From a virus, in IMG/VR virus record IMGVR_UViG_3300035670_000855, positions 1 to 32,305 of that record: a stretch of DNA of 32,305 bases; one strand, written 5' to 3'. The position numbers were made by a program, and so were the translations under genes. Under the pieces are notes generated by a model, which was not told the origin of the DNA, did not search any database, and saw nothing but the letters and a program-made list of their open reading frames with translations. Below are positions 3,193-29,891 of this stretch, piece by piece (position 1 is the first letter of the stretch; the number at the start of each line of letters is the position of its first letter).

Positions 3193-3456
3193 TCAGTGAA
3201 CAGTTGAAGATCCGTCTTCAGCTAGCGTATCAAAATATTGGTTGATCGAATCGACGATCCGCTGCGTTAGCGCTTCAATTTGTTTTAACGACAGCAGTGT
3301 GGATCGCTGCCCACCCTGCACCCACAAGCCGCCATCAGGCAGTAGCATGACTTTGATGATGGCAATCGCGTTTATGTGGTCGAGCAGGGCGTCTTCAGGT
3401 GCTGTCACTTTGTCGAGCAGCGCCTTTACTGTTTCGTCGTCAATGTCGTTGAACAC
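3193..3456 (-). CDS. Small hypothetical protein, GTG start
   Basis: An 87 aa acidic protein beginning FNDIDDETVKALLDKV after the start residue, with IKVMLLPDGGLWVQGGQRS in the middle and a helical C-terminus. The start is set by a strong GGAGG (3463-3467) six bases before GTG 3456. Longer versions starting at 3510 or 3534 have no such site. The 5' end overlaps the last 31 bases of the nuclease gene. I do not recognise the family. It is co-transcribed with the replication genes. Confidence 0.6.
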   Translation of the reverse strand: MFNDIDDETVKALLDKVTAPEDALLDHINAIAIIKVMLLPDGGLWVQGGQRSTLLSLKQIEALTQRIVDSINQYFDTLAEDGSSTVH

Positions 3457-4121
3457 TTCGCGCCTCCACCGTTGTACTCGCACGTCGTGACTGGGCACCA
3501 CTGCTTGCATAGTCCATTCTGTTTCGCCGGCCAACTGTCGTGCTCATCCGCCGCCGCCAGTAGGTCTGCATCGGCGCACCACTTTGCCCAGATAGCCGGT
3601 GCGTCCTCCACGTTGTACACGCTCTTCACCAGCACCTTGGCCGCAGTGAACAACAACGCACCGCGCACGACCTTCACGCTCGGAAAGTGCGCGAACGTCA
3701 TTATCGCCATCAGTTCTAGCTGGCGTTTGTCCGGGTACTTGGCGCTGCCAGTCTTGTAGTCCACGCACCAAGCGAGTTTATCGTTAACGACCAGCAGGTC
3801 TGCAACGCCACGGTACAGTGCGCTCTTGTCGAAGAACTTGACGGGCTGCATGTCGCGCGTGACGCCCATCTTGTACTCGCAGAGCTTGGCACCGGGCAGC
3901 GCTTTGAGTCGATCCAGCGCCGGTTGTAGCTTGCTGAGATCCTCCGGCAACGGCTCGTCGTACCCGACGTACCGCTCTGCTTTCTCGTGGACATAGTTCC
4001 CGTACAGGATCTGCTCTGACTGGGTGAACGGGATCAGGTTGAGCACCTTCTCGACGTGGTGCTTCCGGGGGCAGGTGTGGAACGACTTGATCGAACTGAA
4101 CGACGTGGGCAGAACAGCCAT
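3426..4121 (-). CDS. PD-(D/E)XK exonuclease, Cas4/RecB-like with probable Fe-S cluster
   Basis: A 231 aa protein of the PDDEXK superfamily. Active-site residues can be placed at H45 (GNYVHEKAE), D108 (GVADLL), D121 and K123 (CVDYKTG), and Q134 (KRQLELM), matching RecB-family motifs. One cysteine near the N-terminus (C17, HTCPRKHH) and a cluster near the C-terminus (LCKQWCPVTTCEYN) resemble the four-cysteine iron-sulphur layout of Cas4 and AddB nucleases. The expected role is 5'-end or single-strand trimming during phage recombination and replication. It starts within the polymerase stop codon (TAATG), so the two are translationally coupled. No cas1, cas2 or array is nearby, so a CRISPR role is not implied. 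Confidence 0.88.
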   Translation of the reverse strand: MAVLPTSFSSIKSFHTCPRKHHVEKVLNLIPFTQSEQILYGNYVHEKAERYVGYDEPLPEDLSKLQPALDRLKALPGAKLCEYKMGVTRDMQPVKFFDKSALYRGVADLLVVNDKLAWCVDYKTGSAKYPDKRQLELMAIMTFAHFPSVKVVRGALLFTAAKVLVKSVYNVEDAPAIWAKWCADADLLAAADEHDSWPAKQNGLCKQWCPVTTCEYNGGGAKCSTTLTTKQ

Positions 4122-12410: not shown

Positions 12411-12578
12411 TTAATCCTCAATAAACGTGGTCGGTTTGTTCTTCGCCCGCCTGATCCGCTGGCGGCATCGATCCGAGCAGGCCATCTGGTAGGCCAGCAT
12501 CGGTACAGTCATACCGCATCCCTCACAGCGGCGCAGGACGCGCCGTCGGAGGGCTTGCAACTCTGCCCCGGCGCTCAT
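12411..12578 (-). CDS. Zinc-ribbon micro-protein (55 aa)
   Basis: A small gene starting at ATG 12578 (ATGA overlap with the upstream stop) and ending TAA at 12411, just before the clamp-like gene. The product is MSAGAELQALRRRVLRRCEG continued by CGMTVPMLAYQMACSDRCRQ, giving C-x2-C ... C-x3-C zinc ligands and a basic C-terminus. Phage proteins of this shape are common, and their function is unknown. Confidence 0.65.
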   Translation of the reverse strand: MSAGAELQALRRRVLRRCEGCGMTVPMLAYQMACSDRCRQRIRRAKNKPTTFIED

Positions 12579-12880
12579 GCTGCGCGGCACTCGATCATGT
12601 GCAGCACCTGCGCTACACGGGTGGCGGCGTTGCCGCTCGAAACGACTAGGTCGTCGTACTCATACGGGGCCCGCATCAGCTGCAAAGCCAGCATCGCGAT
12701 CCACGCCGCGCGCACCTCTCGGCCCTTTGCAAACGTCACCGTCTGCAGTTCCATGCGGGGGCCGTAGATGTCGTCGTTGTGCAGCGGGCCGCGCACAACA
12801 TAGGAACACCCGAGGCGCTCGACCGGGCCGACCGCCTTGCGAGCAGCAGCGAGAGCGTAGGTTTTGGGTAGGGTGGTCAT
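12575..12880 (-). CDS. Early small protein A, paralogue of 14230-14532
   Basis: A 101 aa protein starting at ATG 12880, behind the leader GAGGAGAACGAC. The N-terminal segment YALAAARKAVGPVERLG, then YVVRGPLHNDDIYGPR, matches KALAAARLAVSSVERMG and YVVYGPYRDNDIDGPR of the 100 aa protein at 14230-14532. Both share an 'ARAAWIAMLAL / ARWVATIALVL' helix and end in 'AATRVAQVLHMI / AAQRVAYVLRRL'. The two genes are therefore duplicates. The fold is probably alpha/beta. The function is unknown; position and size fit a host-interaction factor. Confidence 0.75.
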   Translation of the reverse strand: MTTLPKTYALAAARKAVGPVERLGCSYVVRGPLHNDDIYGPRMELQTVTFAKGREVRAAWIAMLALQLMRAPYEYDDLVVSSGNAATRVAQVLHMIECRAA

Positions 12881-12890
12881 GTCGTTCTCC

Positions 12891-13136
12891 TCAGTAGACG
12901 TAGTCGGGCGGGGGGAATGCCCCGTGCAGGTCCGCGTACTCTTTCGCCGCAGCCATCGCAGCTTCAAGCGTCGCATGGTGGGATACTCCCCACGTCGTCA
13001 GGCTCGTTTTGCGCCTGTAGCACACCGCATACGGGCGCTTGCGCGGTTGCGCCCCCCACCGGCCCACACTTCGGACCGGGTCGTACATCACGAAATAGGT
13101 GTTTCGCGGGATGTCAACTGTGAGCTTCTTGGTCAT
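12891..13136 (-). CDS. Early small hypothetical protein (81 aa)
   Basis: Starts at ATG 13136 behind GAGGAGAACGAC, the leader shared by several genes in this cluster. The product has KLTVDIPRNTYFVMYDPVRS, a basic middle (RKRPYAVCYRRKTS) and an Ala-rich helix (HHATLEAAMAAAKEYADLHG). No family is recognised. Confidence 0.65.
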   Translation of the reverse strand: MTKKLTVDIPRNTYFVMYDPVRSVGRWGAQPRKRPYAVCYRRKTSLTTWGVSHHATLEAAMAAAKEYADLHGAFPPPDYVY

Positions 13137-13594: not shown

Positions 13595-13619
13595 GGTCGT
13601 TCTCCGTTGTGATGGGGCC

Positions 13620-13663
13620 ATTATGTACTGACTGCGTAATCAGTACAAGCATTAAATTGTATC
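13620..13663 (-). promoter_or_regulatory. Dyad promoter P1
   Basis: -35 TTGTAC (13643-13648), 17-base spacer, -10 CATAAT (13620-13625). The stretch from -35 to -10 is an 8-bp inverted repeat (TGTACTGA / TCAGTACA) around the 8-base core TTACGCAG. An AT-rich block GATACAATTTAATG (13650-13663) sits at UP-element distance and is shared with P2 and P3. GGCCCCA follows the -10 in all three. Confidence 0.7.
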
Positions 13664-13673
13664 AAACCCATGG

Positions 13674-14153
13674 TTAGATCCCCTTTGCGCCGGTCAGGTC
13701 GGCACGGCGCAGGTCGGCACCGTACAAGTCAGCACCGCGCAGGTCGGCACCGTACAAGTCAACACCGCGCAGGTCGGCCCCGCGAAGGTCGGCCCCGCGA
13801 AGGTTCGCACCGCGAAGGTTGGCACAACTCAGCCGCGAGTCGCGCAGGTTGACACCGGACAGGTTGGCGTAGCGCAGTTCGCGTCCGCGCATATCAGCAC
13901 GGCGCAGGTCGGCACCGGACAGACTGGCACCGGTCAGGTCGGCACCGCGAAGGTCGGTCCACCTCAGCTTGCACCGGGTCAGATCTGCGCCATACAGGTC
14001 GCACCCAGCCAAGTCAGCACCGCGCAGGTCGGCCCCGCGCAGGTCGGCCCCGCGAAGGTTCGAACCGCGAAGGTTGGCACCGCGCAGGTCGGCCCCGCGA
14101 AGGTCGTGTCCGCTCAAGTTGCGTTCGCTCAGGTCGATCAAAGTCTTGGTCAT
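13674..14153 (-). CDS. Pentapeptide-repeat protein, long form (159 aa)
   Basis: After MTKTLIDLSERNLSGHDLRG nearly every five residues fit A(D/N)LxG, giving roughly 25 tandem repeats and a predicted right-handed quadrilateral beta-helix shaped like B-form DNA. Qnr and MfpA proteins of this fold bind DNA gyrase. Here the role is inferred: modulation of host topoisomerase or DNA mimicry. It shares its start (MT-LIDLS) and end (LTGAKGI) with the shorter paralogues at 14805 and 15605. It has its own promoter P2 and the GGAGAACGACA leader. The DNA is internally repetitive (GCGCAGGTCGGC-like units), so repeat number could change by recombination. Confidence 0.9.
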   Translation of the reverse strand: MTKTLIDLSERNLSGHDLRGADLRGANLRGSNLRGADLRGADLRGADLAGCDLYGADLTRCKLRWTDLRGADLTGASLSGADLRRADMRGRELRYANLSGVNLRDSRLSCANLRGANLRGADLRGADLRGVDLYGADLRGADLYGADLRRADLTGAKGI

Positions 14154-14187
14154 TGTCGTTCTCCGGTTGCTCTCTGACTGTGGGGCC

Positions 14188-14231
14188 AGTATGTCACGCC
14201 TACGCTAGCGTGACAAGCATTAAATTGTATC
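14188..14231 (-). promoter_or_regulatory. Dyad promoter P2
   Basis: -35 TTGTCA (14211-14216), 17-base spacer, -10 CATACT (14188-14193). The arms TGTCACGC / GCGTGACA enclose the 8-base core TAGCGTAG on the minus strand. The AT-rich block GATACAATTTAATG is at 14218-14231, overlapping the stop of the upstream gene. It drives the 159 aa pentapeptide gene. Confidence 0.75.
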
Positions 14232-14532
14232 AGGCGCGCTTTAGGCGTCTCAGGACGTAGGCAACGCGCTGCGCTGCGGTCCCGTGCGCCTCGATCAGAT
14301 AGCAGTAGGCGTCGTCATCGTCGACGCCCATCAGCACGAGGGCAATCGTGGCGACCCACCGCGCGCGAGCCTGCTGGGCCTGCGGGAACGTGCCGTAGTA
14401 GTTCGCCGTCCGGGGCCCGTCGATGTCGTTGTCCCTGTAGGGGCCGTAGACGACATAGTTGTGCCCCATCCTCTCGACCGATGAAACGGCGAGACGGGCA
14501 GCGGCGAGTGCTTTGGTCATGGTCATCGACAT
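14230..14532 (-). CDS. Early small protein B, paralogue of 12575-12880
   Basis: A 100 aa protein. GGAGG six bases before ATG 14532 sets the start; in-frame ATGs two and four codons later are alternatives. KALAAARLAVSSVERMG and YVVYGPYRDNDIDGPR align with the copy at 12575-12880, as does the C-terminal TAAQRVAYVLRRLKRA. An acidic loop (GVDDDDAYC) distinguishes it. The duplication, together with repeated promoters and pentapeptide genes, shows this region grows by cassette copying. The function is unknown. Confidence 0.75.
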   Translation of the reverse strand: MSMTMTKALAAARLAVSSVERMGHNYVVYGPYRDNDIDGPRTANYYGTFPQAQQARARWVATIALVLMGVDDDDAYCYLIEAHGTAAQRVAYVLRRLKRA

Positions 14533-14803: not shown

Positions 14804-14804
14804 G

Positions 14805-15029
14805 TTAGATCCCCTTCGCATCGGTCAGGTCGGCCAAGGACACCTTCACCCATCGCATATCGACCCCAGTCAGGTCGGCCCCGCGCAGGTCGGCCTTGGT
14901 CAGGTCAGCACCGTACAGATCGGCACCGCGAAGGTCGGCCCCGCGAAGGTCGGCACCGCGAAGGTCGGCCCCGCGCAGGTTGGCGTGGCGCAGGTCGCGT
15001 CCGCTCAGGTCGATCAACTTATGGGTCAT
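14805..15029 (-). CDS. Pentapeptide-repeat protein, medium form (74 aa)
   Basis: MTHKLIDLSGRDLRHANLRG is followed by nine or so ADLRG-type repeats and the end WVKVSLADLTDAKGI. Start and end match the 159 aa paralogue, and the middle is shorter, so it looks like a copy that lost or never gained repeats. With about 11-12 coils it is close to the minimum for a stable beta-helix. The leader is GAGGAGAACGAC behind promoter P3. As for its relatives, a gyrase- or DNA-mimic role is inference. Confidence 0.88.
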   Translation of the reverse strand: MTHKLIDLSGRDLRHANLRGADLRGADLRGADLRGADLYGADLTKADLRGADLTGVDMRWVKVSLADLTDAKGI

Positions 15030-15053
15030 GTCGTTCTCCTCAGTGGTGGGGCC

Positions 15054-15097
15054 AGTATGTCACGCCAGCGTAGGCGTGACAATCATTAAATTGTATC
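15054..15097 (-). promoter_or_regulatory. Dyad promoter P3
   Basis: -35 TTGTCA (15077-15082), 17-base spacer, -10 CATACT (15054-15059). The arms TGTCACGC / GCGTGACA are identical to P2, but the core is CTACGCTG, almost the reverse complement of the P2 core. The AT-rich block is at 15084-15097, with a partial second copy just beyond it. It drives the 74 aa pentapeptide gene. Confidence 0.75.
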
Positions 15098-15105
15098 AAT
15101 TTGTA

Positions 15106-15603: not shown

Positions 15604-15604
15604 G

Positions 15605-15709
15605 TCAGATCCCCTTCGCATCGGTCAGATCGGCACCAATCAGGTCGGCACCAATCAGGTCGGCACCCGTCAGGTTGCAATGGGATAGATTGATCAGCTT
15701 CTGGGTCAT
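15605..15709 (-). CDS. Pentapeptide-repeat micro-protein (34 aa)
   Basis: MTQKLINLSHCNLTGADLIG is followed by two GADL repeats and the family end LTDAKGI. The DNA ends (start ATGACCCA, end GCGAAGGGGATC) match the two larger paralogues, so this is either a remnant left by repeat deletion or a minimal member. Four or five coils are too few for a stable beta-helix alone. It is the first gene after promoter P4 and has CGGAG about seven bases upstream of its start. Confidence 0.6.
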   Translation of the reverse strand: MTQKLINLSHCNLTGADLIGADLIGADLTDAKGI

Positions 15710-18074: not shown

Positions 18075-18674
18075 ATGCTTGAGTTTCTTGTTGATGATGC
18101 TGGTGCATTAGTTCCTACACTTGAGCGAGTGCCATACAGTGACTCAGCACCAATAGGTACACGGGAAGAAATATTCGCGTGTGCTAATACCGCCATGCTA
18201 TTAAAAGAACTTGGCGAAGAAATTGAAGTTACTGAAGAAGACTCAAATAGAGCTAGGCAGATATTTGAAAGCGGGCGTGAGCCCAATAAATACGAGAAAA
18301 GCCTGCCCGGTGTGATGCTCCATCTGGAGGCGTTGCTGACTCAGTACGACTACTCGTTGCTAGAAGACGCGACGGTTATCAGAAACTATGTAACGAACAA
18401 GCTTATTGAGGAAACGACGGACGCGGACCCGCGTATTCGACTGAAAGCGTACGAGTTGCTGGGTAAGATTACGGAAGTTGGGCTTTTCACGGAGCGAGTT
18501 GAGGCGTCTGTTACGGTTAAGCCGTCAACGGAACTTGAGGCGTTGATCCGGGAAAAGCTGGCGCGCCTGACTGAGCGGGTTATCGAACACGAGCCGATTG
18601 AGGAGCCCGAAGATCCGGTGCTTGAGCAGGCGATGGAAGCGATAAATTACGTTTCACCAGACGATATTCTATGA
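18075..18674 (+). CDS. terS: Terminase small subunit
   Basis: A 199 aa protein that recognises phage DNA and recruits TerL for packaging. The central helical part YSLLEDATVIRNYVTNKLIE, then DPRIRLKAYELLGKITEVGL and FTERVEASV, is the pattern I know from phage small terminases. The N-terminal half should be the DNA-binding part, and the C-terminus is acidic (EHEPIEEPEDPVLEQ). It ends with an ATGA overlap with terL. No strong ribosome binding site precedes ATG 18075, so the start is somewhat uncertain. The repeats immediately upstream are candidate binding sites for this protein. Confidence 0.82.
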   Translation: MLEFLVDDAGALVPTLERVPYSDSAPIGTREEIFACANTAMLLKELGEEIEVTEEDSNRARQIFESGREPNKYEKSLPGVMLHLEALLTQYDYSLLEDATVIRNYVTNKLIEETTDADPRIRLKAYELLGKITEVGLFTERVEASVTVKPSTELEALIREKLARLTERVIEHEPIEEPEDPVLEQAMEAINYVSPDDIL

Positions 18675-21214
18675 AATTCACGCCACAAGAAGTCGATTTT
18701 CTGCTACGGAACCTGCATAAGCTACCAATACGCGAGAAAAACGAACTTTTGCTTGCGTTAGAGGAGTTAGAGAAGCGTGATCACGCACAAAATTGCCGTG
18801 AAAACCTTCTAGAGTTCATTCAGCACGTCGATAAAAGCTACAAAATCGGTTCTCACCACCGTCGATTGGCGGAAAATCTGGAGGCGATGGCGCGTGGGGA
18901 GGAGACCCGGCTGATTGTTAACATCGCGCCGAGGTTTGGTAAGAGCATGCTGGTGTCGATTTACTTCCCGGCGTGGCTAATCGGCAACAATCCAGACAAA
19001 AAGATCATGATGGTCTCGCACACGGCGGATCTGGCGGTAGATTTTGGCCGGAAGGTGCGAAATTTGGTGGCGTCGGACGCTTACAAGAGCATTTTCCCGG
19101 ATGTGGCGCTGTCTGCGGACAGCAAATCGGCGGGTCGCTGGGATACCAACAAGGGTGGGACGTACTTTGCGGTGGGTGTCGGCGGTGCGATAGCCGGTCG
19201 GGGTGCGGATTTCCTGTGCATCGCTGGAGATGAGCGGGTGCTGACGCCGAAGGGGTGGCGGCGGGCCGACACGGTGCGTGTTGGGGACAAGATTTGGGGG
19301 TTTGCGGGGTTAGAGACGGTTGAGAAGGTCTTCATGTCGGCGCATACCCGGTATGTAACCGTAGATGGGGTGAAGATGACGCCCAACCACCCGGTTTGGA
19401 CGCATGATGCGGGGTGGGTGCGGGCAGAAAGTTTGACAACTCATAATTTAGTCGATACTGTGACGTTTTGGGCGCATGGGAGACTATGGTATGAGCGAGC
19501 AAAGCGTGCGACGCAAGCAGCGAAACAGTTCTTTTTCGCGGGCGTACAACACTTGGCAGACCCTTCGACGGCGGTGCAACAACCCGAACGCGCAGGACTA
19601 TCCGCAGTATGGCGGGCGTGGCATCAAGTGTTGCGAGCGGTGGGACACGTTCGAGAACTTCGTGCGGGACATGGGGCTGCCTCGCAATACGTCGCAGCGG
19701 CTGGTGCGGATGGATATGAAGGCCGACTACACGCCGGAGAACTGTTGCTGGGTGGACAAGGAATTGGTTCAAACGCCTCGCCGCAATGGCACCAGTCTGA
19801 CAGCGTTTGGGAAGACGCTTTCGGTAAGTCAGTGGGCGCGGGAGATGGGGATTACGCGGGACCAACTGCGGTACCGACTGGACGTGCAGGGTATGACGCC
19901 GGAGGAAGCGCTGCGCTCACCGAGAAAGAGTTGGGTGCAGCGCCGCGTTCGACGGACGAATTTGGATGGGTCCGACGTGCAGTTGTTCGAGTCATTGGCC
20001 GATGCCGCCAAGCGTATGGGGTTCGTCAAGGCTTCGTTGTGGGCTGCTTTGAAGCGCTCATCGCCAACCATGTTTTCGGGTTACTGCTGGGAGTACGTCG
20101 ACTCCGACGAGTAACTGAGCACTGGACAGGGGCGAAGACGTACTACAACTTTCAGGTGTCGGAGAGCAACACGTTTTACGTTGGTGGGTTGTTGACGCAC
20201 AACTGCATTGACGACCCGCACAATGAGCAGGACGTGCTGAACGGCAACTTGGAGACGTTCACCCGAGCGTACGAGTGGTATGCGTACGGTGCCCGGACGC
20301 GACTGATGCCCGGTGGGCGTGTGGCGGTCGTCATGACCCGTTGGGCGCAGTCGGATCTGTCGGGCAAGCTCCTGCAGGACATGGTGCGTAACCCGGAAGC
20401 GGACCAGTGGAACCTGATTGAGTTTCCGGCGTTGTTCGAGAAGAAGGGCGCGCCGAGTGATGCGCCCGAGAACAAGCGGTATCAGTCGCTGTGGCCGGAG
20501 CAGTGGTCGGTTGATGCGCTGCTGAAGACGAAGGCGTCGATGCCGCCGTTCCAGTGGAACGCGCAGTACATGCAGTCGCCGACATCGGCAGAGGCTGCGA
20601 TCATCAAACGGGAGTGGTGGCAGCCGTGGGACAAGGACCAGCCCCCTGCGTGTGAGTACATCATCATGGGTCTCGATGCGGCGGCTGAGAAGCACAACCG
20701 GTCGGACTTCACTTCGCTGACTACTTGGGGCGTGTTTATGCGGGACGGCCCTGACGGGTACCCACGGGCGAACCTGATACTGCTCAACGCGATCAAGGAG
20801 CGCTGGGAGTTTCCCACGTTGAAACAACGCGCGTACGAGGAGTACAAGGAGTGGGAGCCTGATTGGTTCGTTATTGAGAAAAAGTCGAGTGGTACGCCGC
20901 TGTTTCAGGAGCTTAGGTTCGCGGGAGTGCCAGTCAGTGAGTTCACGCCGCACCGGGGCACGGGGGATAAGACTGTTCGGTTGAACAGCGTGGCTGATAT
21001 ATTTTCGTCTGGGCTTGTATGGTACCCTGCCGGGCGACGATGGGCGGAAGATTTGATAGACGAGGTATGTGGCTTTCCAAATATGGAGCACGATGACCAA
21101 GTCGACTCGACGGTGATGTGTTTGATGCGCTTCCGTTCTGGTGGGTTCATTTCGTTGCCGACTGACAGACTGGATGACGATGACTTTATCCCGCGACGGG
21201 CGGCGTACTACTGA
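18671..21214 (+). CDS. terL: Terminase large subunit, intein-interrupted
   Basis: An 847 aa precursor of the DNA-packaging ATPase/nuclease. Walker A is PRFGKS (residues 87-92). Walker B is split by an intein: ...RGADFL | intein of 329 aa | CIDDPHNEQD. Removing residues 183-511 leaves a 518 aa TerL of normal length. The nuclease domain has its acidic residues in IMGLDAAAEKH, WFVIEKKSSG and EHDDQVDST. Because the intein interrupts the ATPase site itself, packaging should require splicing. The stop is followed nine bases later by the portal gene. Between the intein halves lies a separate out-of-frame nuclease gene (19491-20114). Confidence 0.95.
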   Translation: MKFTPQEVDFLLRNLHKLPIREKNELLLALEELEKRDHAQNCRENLLEFIQHVDKSYKIGSHHRRLAENLEAMARGEETRLIVNIAPRFGKSMLVSIYFPAWLIGNNPDKKIMMVSHTADLAVDFGRKVRNLVASDAYKSIFPDVALSADSKSAGRWDTNKGGTYFAVGVGGAIAGRGADFLCIAGDERVLTPKGWRRADTVRVGDKIWGFAGLETVEKVFMSAHTRYVTVDGVKMTPNHPVWTHDAGWVRAESLTTHNLVDTVTFWAHGRLWYERAKRATQAAKQFFFAGVQHLADPSTAVQQPERAGLSAVWRAWHQVLRAVGHVRELRAGHGAASQYVAAAGADGYEGRLHAGELLLGGQGIGSNASPQWHQSDSVWEDAFGKSVGAGDGDYAGPTAVPTGRAGYDAGGSAALTEKELGAAPRSTDEFGWVRRAVVRVIGRCRQAYGVRQGFVVGCFEALIANHVFGLLLGVRRLRRVTEHWTGAKTYYNFQVSESNTFYVGGLLTHNCIDDPHNEQDVLNGNLETFTRAYEWYAYGARTRLMPGGRVAVVMTRWAQSDLSGKLLQDMVRNPEADQWNLIEFPALFEKKGAPSDAPENKRYQSLWPEQWSVDALLKTKASMPPFQWNAQYMQSPTSAEAAIIKREWWQPWDKDQPPACEYIIMGLDAAAEKHNRSDFTSLTTWGVFMRDGPDGYPRANLILLNAIKERWEFPTLKQRAYEEYKEWEPDWFVIEKKSSGTPLFQELRFAGVPVSEFTPHRGTGDKTVRLNSVADIFSSGLVWYPAGRRWAEDLIDEVCGFPNMEHDDQVDSTVMCLMRFRSGGFISLPTDRLDDDDFIPRRAAYY
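19217..20203 (+). mobile_element. Intein in TerL (329 aa) with out-of-frame insert
   Basis: The N-terminal splicing region starts CIAGDERVLTPKGWRRADTV (Cys1 at 19217) and includes block B MTPNHPVWTHDAGW (T55, H58). The C-terminal region is YYNFQVSESNTFYVGGLLTH followed by Asn329 (20201-20203); the next extein residue is Cys. All catalytic residues for standard protein splicing are present. Only about 91 N-terminal and 30 C-terminal residues look like Hint sequence. The ~207 codons between them are an Ala/Gly-rich translation of another gene's DNA in the wrong frame. No endonuclease motif occurs in the intein's own frame. Confidence 0.93.
19491..20114 (+). CDS. Homing-endonuclease-like protein nested out of frame in the TerL intein
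   Basis: A 207 aa gene in the +1 frame relative to terL, entirely inside the intein. ATG 19491 has GGGAG (19478-19482) eight bases upstream; an ATG five codons earlier lacks such a site. Residues 17-60, with RAYNTWQTLRRRC, YGGRGIKCCERW and FENFVRDMG, then YTPENCCWV at 80-88, match a phage family of putative homing nucleases (usual form YGGRGI...C..W...F and NCRW). Residues 110-142 (LSVSQWAREMGITRDQLRYR) and 166-203 (FESLADAAKRMG ... FSGYCWEY) resemble NUMOD-type DNA-binding repeats. It would spread the intein by cutting intein-free terL. Catalytic residues are not certain, and R73-M-D75 deviates from the usual DRID. Confidence 0.85.
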   Translation: MSEQSVRRKQRNSSFSRAYNTWQTLRRRCNNPNAQDYPQYGGRGIKCCERWDTFENFVRDMGLPRNTSQRLVRMDMKADYTPENCCWVDKELVQTPRRNGTSLTAFGKTLSVSQWAREMGITRDQLRYRLDVQGMTPEEALRSPRKSWVQRRVRRTNLDGSDVQLFESLADAAKRMGFVKASLWAALKRSSPTMFSGYCWEYVDSDE

Positions 21215-29233: not shown

Positions 29234-29493
29234 TGGCTAAGACGCCCGCTTGGACTCGCAAGGAAGGTAAAAACCCCAAGGGTGGGCTGAACGCCAAGGG
29301 CCGTGCGTCTTACAATAAGGCGAACCCCGGTAAACCTGGGTTGAAGGCCCCTGCGCCGAACCCGAAAACCGCAGTAGATAAGGCCCGCCGTAAATCGTTT
29401 TGCGCTAGAATGAGCGGCATGCCCGGTCCAATGAAAGACAAAAATGGCAAACCGACGCGAAAATCATTGGCGCTAAAAGCATGGAATTGTTAG
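29233..29493 (+). CDS. Basic small protein, DUF6321-like (86 aa)
   Basis: ATG 29233 overlaps the previous stop. TPAWTRKEGKNPKGGLNAKG, then RASYNKANPGKPGLKAP and RRKSFCARMSGMPGPMKDKN, is a strongly conserved phage pattern that I believe is catalogued as DUF6321. The function is unknown. The C-terminus (LALKAWNC) overlaps the start of the endonuclease VII gene by 13 bases. Confidence 0.8.
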   Translation: MAKTPAWTRKEGKNPKGGLNAKGRASYNKANPGKPGLKAPAPNPKTAVDKARRKSFCARMSGMPGPMKDKNGKPTRKSLALKAWNC

Positions 29494-29891
29494 GTTGCAC
29501 ACGTTGTAAAACCGAAAAACCAGCTACGGCAGAATTTTTTCCGCCACATAGCAAAAAACGAAACGGTTTTGATAGCTGGTGTCGTAAATGTAGGTCTACT
29601 TACCGCAACGCAATAAATCGAGGCAGATTTAGAAACACTATAGCGGACGAAGACCTAATACAAATAAAAACTACTACGCATGAGTGCGTAATATGTGGTT
29701 GCAACGGGCCTTTGGTGGTAGACCACGACCACAAAACAAATGAAATCCGAGGCATATTGTGCAATCACTGCAATAGAGGCCTTGGGCATTTTAGAGATGA
29801 TCCAGAATTGTTGGAGTTTGCAAGGATTTACTTGCTAAGTAGTAAGGGCGACAAAGAAGCTGACGTTTACTTGCTACAGGGGAATTGCTGA
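29481..29891 (+). CDS. Endonuclease VII-like nuclease (136 aa)
   Basis: The N-terminal zinc finger has CTRCKTEKPATAEFFP and WCRKCRSTYRN. The catalytic part ECVICGCNGPLVVDHDHKTN, then RGILCNHCNRGLGHFRDDPE, is the His-Me-finger motif of T4 endonuclease VII-type enzymes, with a second CxxC...CxxC zinc site. Family members resolve branched DNA or act as free-standing mobile nucleases. The DNA is visibly more AT-rich than its neighbours and the gene breaks a run of small structural genes, so recent insertion is likely. It ends QGNC, echoing the WNC end of the gene it overlaps. Confidence 0.88.
   Translation: MELLGCTRCKTEKPATAEFFPPHSKKRNGFDSWCRKCRSTYRNAINRGRFRNTIADEDLIQIKTTTHECVICGCNGPLVVDHDHKTNEIRGILCNHCNRGLGHFRDDPELLEFARIYLLSSKGDKEADVYLLQGNC

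Follow-up and report, generated by a model that had tools for sequence, protein, structure and literature searches.

An intein and a nuclease gene on the same DNA

The DNA analysed in this work (the window) is the 32,305-base virus record IMGVR_UViG_3300035670_000855, positions 1 to 32,305. It carries a gene for the large subunit of the terminase (TerL) that contains an intein and, within the intein DNA but in a different reading frame, a gene for a putative homing nuclease. All features of this locus are on the plus strand. The terL open reading frame (ORF; 18671-21214) is a single open frame of 847 codons, and its product matches the terminase large subunit family phrog_38 (E=4.7e-95) and the Pfam domains Terminase_6N and Terminase_6C. 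The N-extein of 182 amino acids (18671-19216) terminates within the Walker B segment, where the window reads FL/CIDDPHNE (the slash marks the junction) as compared with LLVIDDPHNE in intein-less relatives. The C-extein (20204-21214) starts with the nucleophile Cys+1, a position occupied by V, I or L in the intein-less alleles, and the predicted spliced TerL has 518 amino acids. Dozens of intein-less TerL loci with clean junctions were found.

The intein consists of 329 amino acids encoded in the terL frame (19217-20203, 987 nt). It begins with C1 at 19217, contains the block B sequence TPNHPVW (19379-19399), in which T55 and H58 are the T and H of the TxxH motif, and ends with THN, the H328-N329 pair extending to 20203 and being followed by Cys+1 at 20204. 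Residues H58, P59, W61 and T62 were invariant in 12 aligned inteins. The N-terminal half of the Hint domain (residues 1-80, 19217-19456) was modelled with predicted local distance difference test (pLDDT) values of 85-92 across most of its length, and Pfam Vint/Hint matches to it were below the cut-off; the C-terminal half, with blocks F and G (20099-20203), ends with YVGGLLTHN. In the AlphaFold model of the intein the Hint parts are confident and match the gp41-1 and DnaB inteins in the PDB, with the gp41-1 intein 6qaz (E=9e-6) and other inteins as the top matches. The terL-frame linker (residues 145-237, 19649-19927), which shares its DNA with the nuclease gene, has a pLDDT of about 25 and is predicted to be disordered. 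Profile searches detected no nuclease in this linker, thus the in-frame nuclease of a classical intein is missing. The terL frame is open through all 329 intein codons, and being uninterrupted across the element it does not have the form of a split intein or fractured gene. No group I intron or other Rfam family was found in the element among matches considered up to E=1.

The nuclease gene (19491-20114) is in the +1 frame relative to terL and comprises 207 codons from an ATG at 19491 to a TAA at 20112-20114. A Shine-Dalgarno (SD) sequence, GGGAG (19478-19482), is located 8 nt 5' of the ATG. There is another in-frame ATG upstream, at 19476; in the related locus L002 a stop codon separates the equivalent of this position from the start codon, which matches 19491. 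Because the nuclease frame is closed directly upstream by the TGA at 19461, the nuclease needs a start of its own. An earlier note on this DNA had called the intein blocks, the out-of-frame gene with its SD sequence, start and stop, and the open terL frame, and all of these coordinates proved correct. It had also taken the product for a phage homing-type nuclease, in agreement with the match to the HNH endonucleases of phrog_3377 (E=1.9e-39, over residues 13-155 of the product read from 19476). This family assignment came from PHROGs; the window nuclease could not be placed with confidence in any Pfam or NCBIfam family, and a sequence search against solved structures gave no match. The AlphaFold model of the nuclease (pLDDT 81) had I-HmuI as its top PDB match (probability 1.00, E=1.9e-3). 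Another contig, L001, has the same sequence as the window across 9120 nt.

The nested layout in related terL genes

The first TerL search yielded 80 loci, most of them intein-less, and further searches added L082-L085, L087 and L088, then L120, L121, L122, L128 and L129, and L281-L283 (L280 is a duplicate of L121; L083, L085 and L087 are close to each other, as are L121, L281 and L282). A blastn search of terL against the phage collection gave no match. Loci L002-L005 have an intein, a +1 nuclease and an open terL frame, and altogether +1 nesting was found in 19 distinct TerL loci including the window. The earlier note had named homologues with a nuclease frame riddled with stops as an outcome that would speak against its reading; the nuclease turned out to be conserved out of frame in the relatives. 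Two insertion sites 14 codons apart are used. Insertion is after TerL residue 182 in the window, L002, L120, L121, L281 and L282 (L120, a partial contig, was assigned to its site by similarity), and after residue 168 in L003, L004, L005, L082, L083, L084, L085, L087, L088, L122, L128, L129 and L283.

Other arrangements were also encountered. L041 has a site-168 intein with an open terL frame, in which the nuclease frame is only partly left. In L006 (2492-5279), at the site-182 position, the terL frame is closed, and the nuclease gene lies between an ORF for the N-terminal intein part (IntN), which ends at 3364 and is overlapped by the nuclease start, and an ORF for the C-terminal part joined to TerL (IntC-TerL), which starts at an SD-preceded GTG at 4101 and overlaps the nuclease end. 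L006 thus looks like a split intein of TerL with a related nuclease between the halves, and appears to be the split form at the TerL site used in the window. In a related TerL (L286, 1175-3676) the Walker A motif is the site of a LAGLIDADG-like intein of the in-frame kind; this locus served as a control for the classical layout. The TerL of Escherichia phage BUCT618 (L415, OM735461.1) contains a large insert before CIIIDDPH that starts with Cys and has intein-like ends; no nested nuclease was recognised in this insert.

Selection on the two frames

Avoidance of stop codons was assessed by synonymous permutation of codons within the nested nucleases. In the window, where 2000 shuffles were made, the terL frame contains no stop as compared with 8.3 expected, and none of the 2000 shuffles was stop-free, while the third frame has 6 stops with 5.6 expected. 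For 20 nested nucleases of this family, in terL and in other hosts, host-frame stops numbered 0 in each case with 3-9 expected in each, and stop counts in the remaining frame of the same genes agreed with expectation. At four-fold degenerate sites preceding AA, AG or GA, where a T would create a host-frame stop, T was found at 0 of 265 sites as opposed to 207 of 959 elsewhere (Fisher p=1e-24). These values show that the double-coding layout is real and not a product of chance.

The distribution of substitutions points to unequal constraint on the two frames. In the exteins and Hint halves the third position of the terL codons is the most divergent (0.50-0.58). Within the nested gene the most divergent is terL position 1 (0.46), which corresponds to position 3 of the nuclease codons, and the least divergent is terL position 3 (0.20). 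When constraint was tested in both frames, as the earlier note had suggested, nonsynonymous divergence (pN) in the nuclease frame was 0.12-0.31 and synonymous divergence (pS) 0.57-0.78, whereas in the terL frame of the same DNA pN was equal to or higher than pS. The four-fold divergence of the nuclease (0.64) is slightly under that of the Hint halves and exteins (0.69), and from this small difference it follows that the constraint imposed by the linker is mainly that of staying stop-free. These patterns indicate that purifying selection acts on the nuclease, which is conserved as a protein product, and that the terL-frame linker is chiefly held stop-free. The double-frame constraint proposed in the earlier note therefore holds in that both frames are kept open, but the constraint is asymmetric.

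Mobility and origin

Inteins and nucleases were frequently more similar between loci than the exteins (in the comparison of L084 with L085: extein 0.47, intein 0.66, nuclease 0.68). L085 differs from L083 and L087 by 0-3% across most of the intein and some 300 nt of the extein that follows it, and by about 10-40% over most of the flanks. Such tracts of identity around the intein are as expected of homing with co-conversion. Searching terL homologues for inteins with and without the insert, as had been proposed, returned 18 further nested loci and 146 intein-less loci, and the nuclease was absent from the DNA fetched around the latter. In a tree of the nucleases the clades track the insertion site (support 100/95 and 100/94). 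The two site-specific clades are well supported yet not sisters, therefore more than one nesting event is possible, and a single nesting event for the TerL loci is not claimed here.

Out-of-frame nucleases in other inteins

Two intein-alignment scans gave, after deduplication, 34 distinct complete inteins. A Pfam-confirmed nuclease in either alternative frame was present in 28 of these 34 related phage inteins, a proportion that does not express general prevalence, since the sample was picked by similarity to the N-terminal motif of the window intein. The alternative-frame ORFs assessed by Pfam, 36 in number, were those of these inteins, of L289 and of five named phage records, and included HNH_3 (26), DUF559 (6), LAGLIDADG_2 (1) and HNH (1). 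The nested inteins reside mainly in TerL and helicases, and an in-frame LAGLIDADG_3 was found in 2 of 32 hosts scanned. The frame differs between groups: the terL family with the YGGRGI motif is always +1, the DUF559 group is +1, and the HNH_3 and LAGLIDADG_2 groups are +2. None of 26 further cases had a host-frame stop; the stop deficit is strong for the +1 DUF559 group and for L115, and many HNH_3 cases, taken singly, show a weak one. A further TerL intein in the Walker B region, that of L289, holds an unrelated HNH in the +1 frame, and in L249 a DNA polymerase A (PolA) has an intein-like insert containing a YGGRGI nuclease in +1. L241, L265 and L276 were rejected as nested cases, their alternative frames being merely short or unconvincing.

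The layout was also found in Tetrasphaera phage TJE1, Acinetobacter phage Highwayman, Vibrio phages CP-T1 and 1.194.O, and Rhodobacteraceae phage LS06-2018-MD07, of which TJE1 and CP-T1 are cultured. The annotation of these five genomes lists the host gene only and leaves the nuclease unannotated; standard annotation misses nucleases within intein-bearing genes, in named phage genomes as elsewhere. One record (IMGVR_UViG_3300031965_000432; L097 and L393) has two inteins with a nuclease out of frame, one of the DUF559 family in a helicase gene and one of HNH_3 type in a different gene.

The layout is recurrent, involving four or more families of nuclease and more than one kind of host gene. On balance, frame-nested inteins would seem to be widespread and repeatedly evolved mobile elements of phages, in which independently initiated nucleases of unrelated families (YGGRGI-type HNH, HNH_3, DUF559/Vsr-like and LAGLIDADG_2) are carried by TerL, helicases and DNA polymerase; by the same assessment they would be the commonest layout among related phage inteins and a route from mini-intein to split intein. 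The linker need only be stop-free and flexible, and because of this overlapping genes are tolerated unusually well in an intein, which may explain their recurrence there.

Proposed mechanism and alternative explanations

We consider it very probable that the element is an intein with its splicing domain encoded in one reading frame and its homing nuclease in another that overlaps it. From the layout and its conservation, the avoidance of terL-frame stops, the selection on the nuclease, the site-specific clades and the identity tracts, all of them read from DNA, we infer splicing, independent translation, cleavage and homing. Translation of the terL frame would give a precursor protein; its two Hint halves (intein residues about 1-80 and 295-329) would come together around a long linker of largely meaningless sequence, and excision of the intein would leave the 518-residue TerL. 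Ribosomes initiating separately at the SD-ATG inside the linker DNA would produce from the +1 frame a free I-HmuI-like HNH nuclease of about 24 kDa. By cleaving terL genes that lack the intein, close to the insertion site, the free nuclease would cause the whole unit, intein with nested gene, to be copied in along with adjacent DNA. The element probably arose when a mini-intein was invaded by a free-standing nuclease gene, after which selection for TerL kept the host frame open. The earlier note had likewise read the locus as an intein with a separate nuclease gene out of frame within it, and the relatives strengthen this reading.

An error of assembly, with one indel near each edge, or a chance open frame in GC-rich DNA might in principle imitate such a layout, and the data come from contigs only. 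The identical second contig, the 18 further TerL loci with the same frame and the uniform lack of host-frame stops reduce the probability of this explanation practically to nil; it is refuted by the relatives. Programmed +1 frameshifting from the terL frame, which would yield a fusion of the TerL N-terminal part, IntN and nuclease instead of a free protein, would account for the constant +1 frame of the terL (YGGRGI) family, and several members have AGG AGG or similar codons right before the junction. It is nevertheless very improbable in view of how the nested genes begin. An SD core stands 4-8 nt before the start in 15 of 18 nested terL nucleases as compared with 8.7% of background ATGs in the same DNA, and GGAG is conserved although the terL codons containing it vary, which favours initiation over frameshifting. 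Moreover, the nuclease frame is closed by a stop just before the gene, nesting in the HNH_3 and LAGLIDADG_2 groups is in the +2 frame, and no common slippery sequence was noticed. Separate initiation is less evident for three of the 18 (the L121 clade), which have no recognisable SD sequence, and other observations also weigh against an active, separately made homing nuclease in the window: in Foldseek the E-value of the match to I-HmuI (1.9e-3) is borderline and the TM-score low, and of 26 conserved columns the window nuclease has changes in 4, the highest number for any nested member; N96P is one of these changes, and R86C and G78A are also seen (alignment A3).

Because several conserved positions are changed, catalysis by the window nuclease is uncertain, and the enzyme may be weakened or dead. 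These changes raise the question of a decaying relic, an inactive nuclease that persists through its overlap with the linker while TerL still needs the intein. The nuclease pN/pS of the window-L002 pair (0.31/0.57) was the weakest among the pairs tested, and L041 illustrates a route of decay. We regard a relic as unlikely, since the frame, start, SD sequence and most conserved residues (YGGRGI, Y80, P82, N84, C85 and W87) are intact and pN remains under pS; it would, besides, be compatible with overlapping encoding of splicing domain and nuclease, which addresses the layout. Rather than being a homing enzyme, the nuclease could also have been domesticated to assist DNA packaging, in the manner of the HNH protein of HK97. 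HNH genes beside the terminase are common and the HK97 HNH protein works with terminase (discussed in PMC10448857), and relatives of the HNH_3 nested genes adjoin the terminase in BP10, PAE1, CL2, EauM-23 and Shemara. A packaging function, however, would hardly be expected of a nuclease that is missing from the DNA fetched around the 146 intein-less terL genes, is lost in L041, shares with the intein tracts of identity unlike the flanks, and is nested in helicase and PolA inteins as well; we therefore give this alternative very little credence.

Relation to known systems

Among the closest known systems is the ShiLan domain, an out-of-frame HNH nested in a methylase with an open host frame and without a splicing domain (PMC11855218). 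It shares with the window element the out-of-frame HNH in an open host gene and a disjunct, homing-like distribution, but its insertion is thought to be retained in the protein, no SD sequence was found and the start is GTG (PMC11855218). In the window, by contrast, the host frame encodes an intein, and most of the nested starts have an SD sequence. In L207, L247 and L259 the same nuclease family is nested in +1 in linkers of very large (polyvalent) phage proteins; no intein was seen in these host proteins and host-frame stops are absent there too, so that they resemble the ShiLan case more than the window.

Fractured genes, reportedly described by Dassa et al. in 2009, are said to consist of a split intein whose two parts are separated by a free-standing homing endonuclease gene. 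They resemble the window element in that a separate nuclease gene lies between intein parts and that splicing and homing are assigned to different proteins. They differ in having an interrupted host gene whose products are joined by trans-splicing, whereas in the window the host frame is unbroken and one stretch of DNA encodes both. Classical large inteins, such as those with LAGLIDADG nucleases or the HNH_3 intein in the dCTP deaminase of cyanophage CL131, which was shown to self-excise (PMC6293099), likewise combine a splicing domain and a nuclease at one site, but there the intein itself includes the nuclease, in the same frame. In group I introns with homing endonuclease ORFs (I-HmuI, I-PfoP3I) the nuclease is translated separately, as proposed for the window, and the window nuclease appears related in fold to I-HmuI; these introns splice as RNA, whereas the window element has no Rfam match.

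The earlier note knew of no described system with this layout. The open literature searched gave no account of an intein with a nuclease nested out of frame, but the ShiLan domain and fractured genes are close precedents. A preprint by Gosselin et al. (2025) on actinobacteriophage inteins of non-canonical architecture, the content of which was not covered, may overlap with the present findings; it is cited in PMC11855218 for frequent overlapping reading frames. Besides fusion in frame and a separate gene flanked by the halves of a split intein, the sharing of the same bases by two genes would be a third arrangement of a homing nuclease with an intein. It allows the emergence and maintenance of overlapping genes to be studied in a natural setting, and split inteins, which are in wide use as tools, could plausibly arise by way of it.

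Other features of the window

The ORF immediately 5' of terL (18075-18674, plus strand) is in a location typical of the small terminase subunit, judged by position only. A free-standing endonuclease VII (PF02945, E=4.9e-15) is encoded among the late genes at 29481-29891. An intergenic cassette of about 60-70 nt occurs in three copies on the minus strand (13596-13665, 14164-14233 and 15030-15099), in the order TGATACAATTTAATG, inverted repeat, TGGCCCCA. The arms of the inverted repeat vary between copies yet stay complementary (TGTCACGCC...GGCGTGACA and TGTACTGA...TCAGTACA), and the appearance of the cassette suggests a repeated promoter combined with an operator or hairpin. DNA coding for pentapeptide repeats with A(D/N)LRG units is present on the same strand at 13673-14153, 14804-14995 and 15604-15675, as one full gene (13674-14153) and two further tracts. 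Two minus-strand ORFs (12575-12976 and 14230-14532) are similar to each other (VERLGCSYVVRGPLHNDDIYGPR and VERMGHNYVVYGPYRDNDIDGPR) and are apparent paralogues.

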